Source of the DNA: Pandoraea communis | Lineage (GTDB): Bacteria > Pseudomonadota > Gammaproteobacteria > Burkholderiales > Burkholderiaceae | DNA: 64,000 nucleotides | Reading direction: 5' to 3' | NCBI RefSeq assembly: GCF_902459745.1 | Contig: NZ_CABPSJ010000009.1 | Span: 1 to 64,000 of the forward strand | Shown here: positions 28,449 to 33,387 of the stretch, piece by piece | Layout of the letters: each line of letters opens with the position of its first letter | How positions within the stretch are numbered: position 1 is the first letter of the stretch | The notes under the pieces: model-generated | What the model saw: the letters and a program-made list of their open reading frames with translations, nothing else | The model's database searches: none | Told to the model about the DNA's origin: nothing | Made by a program: the position numbers and the translations under genes

Positions 28449-30872
28449 ATGACGATCCGTCATCGAATAACGCTATTGGTGATCCTGACGTTTGTGGCGC
28501 TCTCGATCATTGGTGGCTACGCGGTCTATCAGACTCGCGCCAGCGCTCATAAGGTGCGGCAGGTTACGGAAGGCGTAGTGCCGAGCGCGCTGGCTTCCGC
28601 CGATCTCGTCTCGCAAGTCAAGGCGGTGCAGATCGCCACCATGACGCTGGTCTACGCGCCGGACGACACCGTCGTCGAGCAGGCGCTCGATAATCTCAAG
28701 AAACTGCGCGGCGAAATTGACCAGTCGCTTGCCCGTCAGGCGCAAGGCGCCGCGAGCGACGCCCAGAAGGGGTTGGTGACGCAAGCCCGCGAGAGCGTCG
28801 AGAACTACTTCAACGCGATCAGCGACACCGCCAAGCTCAAGCAGGCCGGCAAGACCGAGATGGCGCAGGCGTTTCTCTTCGCGATGGTCGCGCAGTATCG
28901 CGACGAACTCGAAGGCGTAGTCAACACGCTTCGTGTCGAGAAGAACCGTCAGAAAGACTCGGCCATCGCCACGCTCAACGACACGCTCTCGACCACCACT
29001 ACGGCCATCGCGCTGGTGACCGGGTTGGCGATCGTGCTGCTCACGGCCATTGGTGCGCTGCTGTATCGCCAGATCACGCGTCCCCTCTCGCGCATGCAGG
29101 CCATGATGAGCGAGATCGCGAACAGCCAGGACTTCACCCGCCGGGTGCCGGTCGGCCGTATGGATGAAATCGGGCATTCGATCGTGGCGTTCAACGGCAT
29201 GATCGAGAAGATTCAGGAGCGCTCGGCGCAACTTAAGCAGAAGACGGCCGACATTCAGGCGATGTTGCAGAACATGCAGCAGGGCATTCTGACGGTCGTC
29301 GACGGCTCGAAGGTTCATGGCGAATACTCGGCTTACCTCGAAGCGATCTTCGAGACGCAGGACATCGCCGGGCGCCCCGTCATGGAATTGGTCTTCGGCG
29401 AGAGCGATCTGGGTTCGAATGCGCTCTCGCAGGTCGAGGCCGCCATCGACGCCTGTATCGGGCAGGACGCCATCAACTTCGCCTTCAACGAACACCTGCT
29501 GGTGGGCGAGATCGGTAAGCGCATGCCCGACGGCCGGGTGAAGCAACTCGATCTGACGTGGTCGGCGATCACCGACGAGAGCGACACGATCCTGCGTCTG
29601 ATGCTGTGTGTGCGCGATGTGACAGAGCTGCGCGAACTCGCCGCCGAGGCGAACGAGCAGAAGCAGCGGCTGGAGATGATCGGCGAGATTCTGGCGGTGA
29701 GTCAGGAGAAGTTCCATCACTTCATCGAAAGCTCGACCGGCTTCATTCGCGAGAACGAACGCATCATCCGCAAGCATTCGCAAGCCGACAGTGCGGCCAT
29801 CGCGGAGCTGTTCCGCAACATGCACACCATTAAGGGCAACGCGCGCACATATAACCTGCAATATCTGACGAACGTCGTGCACGAGACCGAGCAGCGCTAT
29901 CACGATCTGCGTCAGCCCGACGTCGCTCGTCTGTGGGATCAGGACGGCCTGATGCGCGAACTCGAACGCGTGCGCGAAGCGGTCGACACCTACGCCCAAA
30001 TCAATGAGATGAGTCTCGGCCGCAAGGGCCCGGGCAGAGCCGCCGACGAACAGTCGATGGTGGTCGATCGCGCGCACATCCGGGCCAGCCTGCGCATGCT
30101 CGAAGCGGCCGATCCGAACGATCCGCAGCAACTTGTCGCCATGCGCGACGCCGTGCACCAGACGCTGCGTCTGCTGGGCACCGAAGGCGTGGGCGAAGCG
30201 CTGGGCGGTGTGCTGGATTCGTTGCCATCGCTCGCGGCCGAACTCGGCAAGCCGGCCCCGGCCGTGCGAATCGACGACAACGGCTACCGCCTGCGATCGC
30301 CCGCCGTGCGGATTCTGCGCGACGTGTTCATGCACCTGCTGCGCAATTCGATGGATCACGGGCTGGAGAGTGCGGACGAGCGTCGTATGAAGGGTAAGCC
30401 GCCCGCGGGCACCATCGACATTGAAGTCGGCCTCGACCACAACATGCTGCAAGTCACGCTCGCCGACGACGGTCGCGGGCTGGCGCTGCACCGTATCCGC
30501 AATATCGCCGTTCAGCGCGGCTGGATTACCGCCGAGACCTATGTGACGGACGAGCAGATTGCCCAGTTCATCTTCCGTCCGGGCTTTTCGACGGCAGCGC
30601 AAGTCACCGAAGTGTCGGGGCGCGGGGTGGGCATGGATGCCGTGCAGGACTTCGTGCGCCGCGAACATGGCCGTATCGAACTGCGCTTCACCGACGAGCG
30701 CAAGGGTGCCGAATTCCGTCAGTTCCAGACGGTGGTGTGTCTGCCCGACAACCTGGTGGTCGATGGCTTCGACCTGAACAGTGTGGCGGCCGATGCCGTG
30801 GACCTGCCGGCCATCGAGGCTGGCGAGCGATCGGCCTCGCGCGGTGGTCTGTCGCAAGCCGACAAGGTTTGA
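28449..30872 (+). CDS. Membrane-anchored CheA-like hybrid sensor kinase
   Basis: The 807-residue protein reads in order: helix 1 (7-28), a helical chemoreceptor-type sensor region (30-185), helix 2 (186-208), HAMP (205-262), a PAS-like segment (about 270-395), an Hpt domain with H459 in NMHTIKGNA, a helical linker, then a CheA-type ATPase (N-box around N633-H637, DDGRG at 673-677, GRGVGMD at 724-730). It ends about 45 residues after the ATPase fold, so the CheW-like P5 domain of normal CheA is missing. It thus joins receptor and kinase in one chain. ATG 28449 is preferred over GTG 28425 because GGGGAAA precedes it. It heads a five-gene cluster. Confidence 0.85.
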   Translation: MTIRHRITLLVILTFVALSIIGGYAVYQTRASAHKVRQVTEGVVPSALASADLVSQVKAVQIATMTLVYAPDDTVVEQALDNLKKLRGEIDQSLARQAQGAASDAQKGLVTQARESVENYFNAISDTAKLKQAGKTEMAQAFLFAMVAQYRDELEGVVNTLRVEKNRQKDSAIATLNDTLSTTTTAIALVTGLAIVLLTAIGALLYRQITRPLSRMQAMMSEIANSQDFTRRVPVGRMDEIGHSIVAFNGMIEKIQERSAQLKQKTADIQAMLQNMQQGILTVVDGSKVHGEYSAYLEAIFETQDIAGRPVMELVFGESDLGSNALSQVEAAIDACIGQDAINFAFNEHLLVGEIGKRMPDGRVKQLDLTWSAITDESDTILRLMLCVRDVTELRELAAEANEQKQRLEMIGEILAVSQEKFHHFIESSTGFIRENERIIRKHSQADSAAIAELFRNMHTIKGNARTYNLQYLTNVVHETEQRYHDLRQPDVARLWDQDGLMRELERVREAVDTYAQINEMSLGRKGPGRAADEQSMVVDRAHIRASLRMLEAADPNDPQQLVAMRDAVHQTLRLLGTEGVGEALGGVLDSLPSLAAELGKPAPAVRIDDNGYRLRSPAVRILRDVFMHLLRNSMDHGLESADERRMKGKPPAGTIDIEVGLDHNMLQVTLADDGRGLALHRIRNIAVQRGWITAETYVTDEQIAQFIFRPGFSTAAQVTEVSGRGVGMDAVQDFVRREHGRIELRFTDERKGAEFRQFQTVVCLPDNLVVDGFDLNSVAADAVDLPAIEAGERSASRGGLSQADKV

Positions 30873-30988
30873 GGCGCCGCCACACCGTTGGCATCGTCGG
30901 CACCGCTGGCACAGTAAGCACGATGGGCAAGGCGGCGCGGACCTGACGGGTCTGCCGCCGCCGTGCCGCTTTCGGAGACGAATGGCGT

Positions 30989-31717
30989 ATGGAAGCAGTG
31001 GAATGGCTGTTGGCAGGGGCGCTGGCCGGCGTGATCGGCGCGGGTGCGGTGGCGTTTGTCGCGCATCGCTGGCGCATGGCGCGGGCCACCGCACATTGGC
31101 GTGCGCTGACCAAGACGCACGACGAAGCGTTGGCGCAGGCGCTGGACCGTGAGCGTCTGGCCGTGACAAGCCGCGAGGAAGGCGCCCATGCGCACGACGA
31201 GGCGCTTGCCGCGCTACGGGCCAGTCTGACGCAGGCGGAACTGGATTTGGAGGCTGCACGCAAGTCGGAGGCGGCCGTGCTCGAGGCGAAGGGCCTCTGG
31301 CAGGCCGAGGCGCAACGCATTGCCGCAGAGGCCGCGCGCCTGCGCGGTCTGGCGGCGACGTTCGAGCGCTGGCACGAGCAGATGATCTCGCTCATGACGC
31401 AGAACCAGGACATGCACGCGAAGAACCACGAACTGGCGTCGATTGTCCGGCACGTGCTGATCGTGTCGCTGAACGCGTCCATCGAAGCGGCGCGTGCGGG
31501 CTCGGCAGGGCGCGGCTTTGGCATCGTTGCCGGCGAAGTGCGCTCGCTCGCCACGCGCTCGGAGGAGCTTTCGAAGAGCTACCGCGACAGCCTGCACCGC
31601 AACGACGTGACGACCACCGCGACGTTTCAGGACATTCAGGCGGGCGGCAAGATGATTGCGGCCTCGCTCTCGAGCGTCGAATCGTTGGCCCAGCAGTTGC
31701 ATTCCCGTCTTCACTAA
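30989..31717 (+). CDS. Truncated methyl-accepting chemotaxis-like protein
   Basis: The 242-residue protein has one N-terminal membrane helix (4-26), a charged coiled coil (about 40-125) and the conserved chemoreceptor signalling core at 161-188 (LNASIEAARAG, GRGFGIVAGEVRSLA). It has no ligand-binding domain and only a short cytoplasmic hairpin, against more than 500 residues for a normal receptor. It could sense through its membrane helix or scaffold the neighbouring kinase. GGAG lies about 12 bases before the start. Its partner kinase lacks a CheW domain, so how it would couple is unclear. Confidence 0.75.
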   Translation: MEAVEWLLAGALAGVIGAGAVAFVAHRWRMARATAHWRALTKTHDEALAQALDRERLAVTSREEGAHAHDEALAALRASLTQAELDLEAARKSEAAVLEAKGLWQAEAQRIAAEAARLRGLAATFERWHEQMISLMTQNQDMHAKNHELASIVRHVLIVSLNASIEAARAGSAGRGFGIVAGEVRSLATRSEELSKSYRDSLHRNDVTTTATFQDIQAGGKMIAASLSSVESLAQQLHSRLH

Positions 31718-31733
31718 GCAGGCAGGTTTCGTT

Positions 31734-32303
31734 GTGATCAGCGCCCACGCACGCGACAGTTTCGAACGCATTCTGCACAAGGCGGTCCGCACGCGGCTGG
31801 CCCGCACACCCGACACCGCGTGCGACATCGTGCCGCTCAAGGTACGTCAGACAGATTCGGCCGCCTCGGATGCCGACGTCGATATGGTGACGCGGCACGC
31901 CAACGTGGTCGTGCTCACGATCTCGTCCATCGGGTTTCGCATGCTGCTGGTGCTGCATTTCGACGAGGACGACGTCACCACCCGGTATTTCGCGGGCGAC
32001 GCGCAGGACAAGCCGTTTCGCGAAGTCTTCCTCGAAATCAGCAATCTCTGCTGTGGGGCGATCAATCAGGAACTGCTCGCCTACTTCCCCGATCTGGGCA
32101 TGTCGACGCCGTACGTGCTGAGCGCGCGCTGCGTGCCTCACCTCATGCAGCTCAAACCGAACCATCTGGCGTCGTGGGACATCATGCTCGACGGCTCGGT
32201 GCGTCTGGCTGCCACGCTGTGCGTTTGCGCGCACGCGCCGCTCGACTTCGACGCCGAACTCAGCGTGACGCAGGACAGCAGCGGCGAACTGGAATTGTTT
32301 TGA
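31734..32303 (+). CDS. CheX-like phosphatase domain protein, copy 1
   Basis: This 189-residue protein is only weakly recognisable. A segment EISNLCCG (E101, N104, G108) matches the ExxN signature of CheC/CheX/FliY proteins, which dephosphorylate CheY-P. The GTG start at 31734 has AGG with a 7-base spacer; 16 bases separate it from the previous gene. The C-terminus ends GELELF, almost the same as the next gene's product. The family assignment rests on that motif, its length and its neighbours, so it is tentative. Confidence 0.55.
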   Translation: MISAHARDSFERILHKAVRTRLARTPDTACDIVPLKVRQTDSAASDADVDMVTRHANVVVLTISSIGFRMLLVLHFDEDDVTTRYFAGDAQDKPFREVFLEISNLCCGAINQELLAYFPDLGMSTPYVLSARCVPHLMQLKPNHLASWDIMLDGSVRLAATLCVCAHAPLDFDAELSVTQDSSGELELF

Positions 32304-32332
32304 ATCGGCGCACGCCATAGGAAATTACGACC

Positions 32333-32974
32333 ATGAACCGAAGCACCCCCCGCGAGCCGGCCAGCCAGTTTTTGATCCTCGAAGACAGCGTGGAGCACGA
32401 ATATCCCGAAGCGCTTGTGCGCGGCATGATCGACATCACCGACGGCGTGTTTCGTGGTCTGTTCGGTGAGATCGCCATGCACTGCGAGCCGCCCAGCGTG
32501 GTGCGCGATCGCATCATTTTCGGCGAAGTCTTCAGCCTGATCCCGCTAGAGAGCGCCTGGTGCCGTGGGTTCATGATGATGCAGGCCGAACAGGTGCCGT
32601 TCATGCAATTGCTTGAGCACACGGGCCGTTGCGAAGGCCAGGCGGGCTTTCGCGAACTCAACGGCATGCTCGGCGAGTTGACGAACCTGATCTGGGGGGC
32701 GTTCAAGAACCGCTACATGGGCGACCCCTTGTCGGTGGACCGCGCACAGATACAAGTGCCTCTGCTGATCAATCACAAGCAGAAGTACATCTCGTTCGGC
32801 ACCGATAACCCGCAGTTGTGCTTCGTCTATCGACTCACCGATCCGGTCAGCGCGCAGACCGTGACGTTGCATCAGCATTTCGTATTCAGTCTGAACTGGT
32901 CGCCGGAAGCGTTTCGCGAAGCCGCACAGGTGGCCACCGAACCCGTCGAGACCGGGGCGCTGGAATTGTTCTGA
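32333..32974 (+). CDS. CheX-like phosphatase domain protein, copy 2
   Basis: The 213-residue protein has ELTNLIWG (E115, N118, G122), aligning with EISNLCCG of the preceding product and with the ExxN catalytic signature of CheX. Its C-terminus ends GALELF. Outside these patches the two proteins differ widely, so they are old paralogues rather than a recent duplication. AGGAA lies upstream of the ATG. A role in removing phosphate from the CheY-like protein next door is likely but inferred. Confidence 0.55.
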   Translation: MNRSTPREPASQFLILEDSVEHEYPEALVRGMIDITDGVFRGLFGEIAMHCEPPSVVRDRIIFGEVFSLIPLESAWCRGFMMMQAEQVPFMQLLEHTGRCEGQAGFRELNGMLGELTNLIWGAFKNRYMGDPLSVDRAQIQVPLLINHKQKYISFGTDNPQLCFVYRLTDPVSAQTVTLHQHFVFSLNWSPEAFREAAQVATEPVETGALELF

Positions 32975-33021
32975 GATCCCGGCTCGCACACCTACTCCCT
33001 CTTATACACAAGGACAACACC

Positions 33022-33387
33022 ATGTCGAAGATTCTCGTGGTCGATGACTCGAGCACCGTGCGCGACGAAGTCGCGGGTTTCCTGCGCAAGAACGGCCTGG
33101 ACGTGGACACGGCTATCGACGGCCGCGACGGCCTCGCCAAGATCAAGGCCAGCCCGGGCGTGAAGCTGGTCATCAGCGACGTGAACATGCCGAACATGGA
33201 CGGTCTGACGATGGTCGAGAAGATTCGCGGCGAACTTGCGAACAAGACCGTCAACGTGGTGATGCTCACCACGGAAAGCAGCCCGGCGATGAAGGAGCGC
33301 GGCAAGGCCGCCGGGGTGAAGGGCTGGATCGTCAAGCCGTTCAAGGGCGACGCCGTGCTCGAAACGTTCCGCAAGCTCGCCAGTTGA
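33022..33387 (+). CDS. CheY-like single-domain response regulator
   Basis: The 121-residue protein is a bare receiver domain. All key residues are present: D8/D9 (metal), D53 (phosphate acceptor, in ISDVNMPNMDG), T83 or T84 (in MLTTES) and K105 (in VKPF). With no output domain it must act by binding a partner. It should take phosphate from H459 of the kinase upstream. AAGGA precedes the ATG by about 8 bases. A longer frame starting at 32818 overlaps the previous gene and is not used. Confidence 0.92.
   Translation: MSKILVVDDSSTVRDEVAGFLRKNGLDVDTAIDGRDGLAKIKASPGVKLVISDVNMPNMDGLTMVEKIRGELANKTVNVVMLTTESSPAMKERGKAAGVKGWIVKPFKGDAVLETFRKLAS

Follow-up and report, generated by a model that had tools for sequence, protein, structure and literature searches.

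A five-gene set of Pandoraea communis with a CheA-type membrane kinase that lacks the CheW-like domain, probably an unnamed variant of the chemotaxis machinery

The closest described relatives of the gene set reported here belong to the chemotaxis machinery. According to the large CheA survey of Berry, Andrianova and Zhulin (2023, PMC10782961), all CheA proteins carry the P1, P3, P4 and P5 domains (P5 in 100%), the dimerisation domain P3 consisting of two helices of about 26-28 residues; CheA3 and CheA4 of Cereibacter sphaeroides, like the kinase described below, depart from the single five-domain CheA, but both retain CheW domains and act in a chemoreceptor array. Here we analysed a 64,000-nucleotide stretch of the Pandoraea communis genome (assembly GCF_902459745.1, contig NZ_CABPSJ010000009.1; hereafter the window) and describe five same-strand genes at 28449-33387. 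Their products are called P1 (the kinase), P2 (the receptor-tip protein), P3 (the first CheX), P4 (the second CheX) and P5 (the lone receiver); these names are distinct from the CheA domain numbers (P1 Hpt, P3 dimerisation, P4 ATPase, P5 CheW-like), which are written below as CheA domains or as "P5 domain". The host is a soil bacterium. In known systems the residues of the chemoreceptor tip bind CheW and the CheA P5 domain, and the C-terminal end of CheZ binds CheY. The set described here is probably a real, so far unnamed variant of this machinery, since many related bacteria retain it as a unit; no account of it was found in open-access papers, most subscription journals lying outside the scope of that search. 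We put at about 60% the probability of a self-contained phosphorelay that runs without a P5 domain or CheW, its CheA-type catalytic core being joined to its own receptor.

The first-pass annotation of this DNA had proposed five genes running in one direction, and all five were found in place, separated by intergenic gaps of 116, 16, 29 and 47 bases (P3 counted from GTG 31734). Between them stands no CheW gene and no Che gene beyond those listed here:

28449-30872, + strand: P1, membrane sensor kinase of 807 aa with CheA-type Hpt and ATPase and without a CheW-like P5 domain
28449-28931, + strand: first membrane helix and periplasmic four-helix-bundle sensor (4HB_MCP_1), P1 residues 1-161; matched in 25/28 kinases
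29058-29219, + strand: HAMP, P1 residues 204-257; matched in 25/28 kinases
29256-29621, + strand: PAS-like domain, P1 residues 270-391; Pfam, and helix-strand pattern in the model
29766-29978, + strand: Hpt, P1 residues 440-510, with the phosphorylation site H459 at 29823-29825; Pfam, and family profile against CheA P1 structures
30069-30173, + strand: short two-helix linker at the place of CheA P3, P1 residues 541-575, helices of 12 and 17 residues; model
30312-30719, + strand: CheA-type, P4-like ATPase (HATPase_c), P1 residues 622-757; Pfam and solved-structure matches
30989-31717, + strand: P2, one membrane helix and a chemoreceptor signalling hairpin; MCPsignal residues 149-235 at 31433-31693
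31734-32303, + strand: P3, first CheX-type protein, 189 aa, ExxN at 32034-32045; alignment, model and Foldseek
32283-32300, + strand: C-terminal tail of P3, GELELF
32333-32974, + strand: P4, second CheX, 213 aa, ExxN at 32675-32686; PF13690
32363-32398, + strand: in P4, remnant of the first strand of a receiver-like domain that other genera keep; alignment
32954-32971, + strand: C-terminal tail of P4, GALELF
33022-33387, + strand: P5, single-domain receiver, D53 at 33178-33180

Domain search agreed with the architecture first read for P1, namely two membrane helices, HAMP, a PAS-like domain, an Hpt domain with H459 and a CheA-type ATPase. Among 28 kinases including that of the window, Hpt and ATPase were matched in 28/28, HAMP in 25, 4HB in 25, PAS in 17 (E<=0.1, window included) and GAF in 4. 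The PAS match of the window P1 reaches 20.5 bits, under the Pfam cut-off of 22.6, and the two hydrophobic membrane segments flanking its sensor were read from the sequence. All 28 aligned kinases share H459, the family Hpt profile matches CheA P1-domain structures, and solved CheA proteins are the best matches of the ATPase. When the structural model of P1 (19 sequences, mean pLDDT 83.5, pTM 0.45) was submitted to Foldseek, CheA P4 and P3-P4 entries ranked first; two short helices occupy the place of CheA P3 in this model, those of 12 and 17 residues aligning in part with CheA P3 of 4xiv, and the C-terminal 31 residues are unordered. The sensor parts differ among relatives (4HB-HAMP, 4HB-HAMP-GAF, PAS_3 or none named) on a constant core of Hpt and ATPase, suggesting that the kinase is its own receptor, as was supposed when it was first proposed to sense directly.

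The absence of a CheW-like P5 domain, likewise claimed at first reading, was confirmed from the C-terminal lengths and from a genome-wide search. All 27 kinase relatives stop 43-82 residues past the G2 box, the last ATPase motif, which leaves no room for a CheW domain (PF01584, 138 positions). The genome-wide search located eight CheW-domain places, all on contigs C1 and C6; the window's own contig, C9, has none. The 25 families listed, out of 34, for the 28 kinases include neither CheW nor H-kinase_dim, the family of the CheA dimerisation domain, and H-kinase_dim was not matched in the window P1 either. P1 resembles CheA in its Hpt domain and CheA-type ATPase and differs from it in having no P5 domain, at most a short remnant of P3, and a membrane sensor, HAMP and PAS in front. 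Measured against PMC10782961, where all CheA have the P1, P3, P4 and P5 domains, it appears to work like a CheA yet does not pass as one.

The membrane sensor, HAMP and PAS, which domain search and family knowledge mark as usual in two-component kinases, would also suit an ordinary two-component system built of odd parts, in which a membrane kinase serves a receiver, CheX acts as a common phosphatase and P2 is a leftover. We consider this very unlikely. The phospho-histidine lies in Hpt and not, as in an orthodox sensor histidine kinase, in DHp, and the ATPase is of the CheA type; HisKA gave no match in the window P1 at E<=1 and is absent from the families listed for the 28 kinases. Unlike a leftover, P2 is kept in 94/98 loci with 29 invariant columns.

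The neighbourhood check showed that the genes belong together, as had been claimed, and that their co-occurrence is not rare. The first scan comprised the best 80 of 206 matches, and P1, P2, P3 and P5 stand in this order on one strand in all 80 loci; overall, all four are present in 94 of the 98 loci, with P4 in 63. Two of the four incomplete loci lie on short contigs (L122, L125), and the other two, L145 and L146, are unlinked kinases from a single genome. In the distant genome G896, two kinases lie on separate contigs, and a third contig carries the only P2-P3-P4-P5 set. In several distant relatives the order is changed with the set intact, as P1-P5-P2-P3 (L114, L116), P1-P4-P5-P2-P3 (L117, L124) or P2-P3-P4-P5-P1 (L120, L121). 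The closest kinases are those of Pandoraea loci, with 94-99% identity in 16/17 and 74% in P. terrae.

The kinase core was found in 115/249 sampled genomes of the family, with a single copy per genome in the rows listed, which makes the module a single-copy signalling set across these genomes, and in 5/398 genomes of the phylum sample. In the class samples the kinase was found in 4/369, P4 in 4/339 and P2 in 5/311, in the same four genomes, with P2 additionally in G889. At the locus of G889 (L162, 8718-10454) the kinase frame breaks off within the PAS part, immediately ahead of P2 and P3, through decay or an assembly fault, and neither P4 nor P5 could be recognised within the 20 kb examined. 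One genome of the window's genus (G194; 1.2 Mb, 100% complete) is without the kinase and is possibly that of a reduced symbiont.

P2 shares with methyl-accepting chemotaxis proteins the signalling hairpin and its conserved tip (MCPsignal, PF00015, 5.3e-15). It differs from them in its one membrane helix, short arms and a C-arm of its own, and Pfam matched no sensor domain or HAMP in the window P2. The tip is invariant in 26/26 aligned proteins; the 29 invariant columns include L161, N162, E166, R169 and R175, as well as TFQD and QA of the family-specific C-arm. By appearance the arms look too short for methylation helices, no methylation-site search having been made.

The retained tip would also suit an accessory branch of ordinary chemotaxis arrays, which P2 would join through CheW, with P5, P3 and P4 serving as a phosphate sink or modulating the flagellar CheY. 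The host genome has the eight CheW-domain places on other contigs and a CheZ, and the module could talk with these ordinary CheW-containing systems and with CheZ. We nevertheless judge such a branch unlikely: the module's own kinase travels with P2-P5, no CheW or further Che gene stands between the five genes, and a flagellar sigma-28 promoter is not clearly present before the kinase. Sigma-28 matches with <=2 mismatches were found in 7/88 upstream regions against 11/440 letter-shuffled copies, and they were not taken as a signal because the excess is small, the positions are scattered and the shuffles preserve letters only.

That both ExxN proteins are CheX-like, as first proposed, was upheld by Pfam, by the ExxN alignments and by the fold of P3. 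The start of P3 was set at GTG 31734 by alignment with relatives beginning MIS. The window P3 has no Pfam match of its own, and it was assigned to CheX from the Pfam matches of its relatives (18/29, E<=0.1) together with its fold: in Foldseek its model (mean pLDDT 87.8) found CheX or CheC-like proteins at ranks 1-13, with E from 2.5e-7 to 1.3e-5 and moderate TM-scores of 0.55-0.62 by target length. A search of the P3 profile against solved structures returned CheX only (E 0.24). P4 is CheX by Pfam (PF13690, 9.2e-10) and by structure (3iic, 1.1e-8). All 29 aligned P3 and all 22 aligned P4 have both E and N of ExxN. A motif pattern check missed P3 in 8 of the 94 loci (L114, L116, L117, L120, L121, L143, L144 and L124); all eight rows sit in the 29-row alignment with E and N invariant. 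Outside the tail the likeness of P3 and P4 is modest (hhalign 55%, E 1e-4). The CheX proteins of Thermotoga, Borrelia and Vibrio (1squ, 1xko, 3hzh, 6vpw) are matched in the fold of P3, the Pfam family of P4 and ExxN, and the differences are that the window P3 is too divergent for Pfam, that P3 and P4 are tailed and that P4 elsewhere carries a receiver-like domain.

This front domain, which resembles a degenerate receiver, gives P4 a length of ~320 aa elsewhere. P4 is short in 16/17 Pandoraea loci, aligning with the window P4 from residue 1, with part of the first strand still present; the whole domain is retained in P. terrae (L044, 321 aa). By sequence its likeness to P5 is weak (hhalign 84% probability, E 8e-6, 67 columns), Response_reg was not matched by any of three full-length P4 at E<=0.5, and a comparison with solved structures found nothing convincing. 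The place of the acceptor, set by pattern, would hold Glu in 41, Asp in 2 and another residue in 3 of 46 scorable proteins. P4 is absent from 31/94 complete loci, and P3 is never absent from a complete set. On a tree of P1 (93 rows, a quick method, with long branches flagged and L113 and the four incomplete loci left out) the pattern of P4 loss took 9 changes, at least 7 of them forced by starred branches, and P4 would be ancestral. Genome G890 holds a second P4-like protein (L156, 6287-9871) that has a front domain and ends in the tail SGELEFF; opposite it stand a sensor kinase of ordinary appearance and a receiver-PAS protein.

Like CheY, P5 consists of one receiver domain and has the acidic pair, Asp, Thr/Ser and Lys. 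D8, D9, D53, T84 and K105 are invariant in 20/20, and P5 is the most conserved of the five proteins, with 61-94% identity to the window over 19 relatives. The motif pattern check missed it in 7/94 loci, and in four of these rows (L119, L120, L121, L144) the key residues are present on the alignment.

P3 and P4 share a C-terminal tail, G-x-[LM]-[ED]-[LMF]-F and mostly GELELF or GELDLF, which ends 94/94 P3 and 63/63 P4 with a visible stop; the orphan P4-like protein of G890 and the P3 and P4 of G896 bear it too. The residues ahead of the tail are weakly conserved, and the P3 model leaves its last five unordered (pLDDT <50). An invariant end after a loose stretch looks like a docking peptide, and the tail is, judged from its sequence, probably a docking tail common to both CheX proteins. 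Its partner would most likely be the receiver P5, by analogy with CheZ, and less likely the P2 hairpin. The CheZ of the host genome ends QVDDLLASLGF, and CheZ shares with P3 and P4 a tail ending in a hydrophobic residue and Phe, but its fold is unrelated and its tail letters are others. A scan of the genome with the exact tail pattern matched P3 only, which says little on looser tails because the GALELF of P4 lies outside the scanned pattern. In another locus of G890 (L144, 6081-6896) a distant P2 itself ends FELDF, resembling the tails of P3 and P4.

In the self-contained phosphorelay that we favour, the 4HB sensor, HAMP and PAS relay would set the ATPase, which would phosphorylate H459 of Hpt, and the phosphoryl group would pass from H459 to D53 of P5, to be removed by P3 and P4. 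The tail would tether P3 and P4 to one shared partner, keeping both near their target, and P2 would be a membrane anchor or scaffold derived from a chemoreceptor tip. We propose that the kinase needs neither CheW nor a P5 domain because it is driven through HAMP and PAS. Of the interpretation first given to these genes, part has found support: the own-receptor kinase, the missing P5 domain, the CheX features and the linkage stood. The anatomy, conservation, linkage, missing P5 domain, CheX fold of P3 and shared tail were computed directly; every enzymatic step, the partner of the tail, what P2 does and the P5 output we infer. New with respect to the first-pass annotation are the shared tail, the lost receiver-like part of P4, the variable sensors, and the ordinary CheW systems and CheZ of the host.

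Several points weigh against the self-contained phosphorelay. The domain arrangement of the P1 model is unsure at pTM 0.45, and, given the partial match of the short linker to CheA P3, P1 may be no more than a CheA from which the P5 domain was lost. Coupling to ordinary arrays is possible since P2 retains the tip residues and the genome encodes CheW proteins, the binding of the tail to the receiver would rest on the CheZ analogy, and no neighbour gene recurs widely among the non-Pandoraea loci (n=81).

A bolder version of the phosphorelay, which we regard as tentative and rather doubtful, would have the array given up altogether: a CheA core driven through HAMP and PAS, P2 as membrane hub, GELELF recruiting both CheX proteins to the hub or the receiver, several interchangeable kinases feeding a single P2-P5 set, and a receiver-like P4 part that mostly has Glu at the acceptor place and, as a fixed mimic, competes with phosphorylated P5. 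The module offers a natural test of whether control of a CheA catalytic core is possible without the P5 domain, which all CheA surveyed in PMC10782961 have, and without CheW. Its tail is a candidate docking peptide of CheX-type phosphatases and lends itself to tests with short peptides.

The genes flanking the module in the window were also considered as parts of it. Four of the five tested occur in 0/63 non-Pandoraea and 0/18 distant loci, and the fifth, a porin of a large family, occurs in 7/63 and 1/18, respectively. A common neighbour as output gene was likewise rejected, the most recurrent flank family, which looks like a DJ-1/AraC-type regulator, being present in just 23/81 non-Pandoraea loci. 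On the Ideonella dechloratans plasmid NZ_CP088082.1 (L148, 11035-16283) an integrase and a diversity-generating-retroelement group (reverse transcriptase and two Avd genes) directly follow the set, and the adjacent receiver matches the first 56 profile positions only. Upstream of P1 in L035 and L093, from Pandoraea and Cupriavidus, a common stretch CGCAATAATC followed by TCGCAC was seen by eye and is possibly a promoter or operator.

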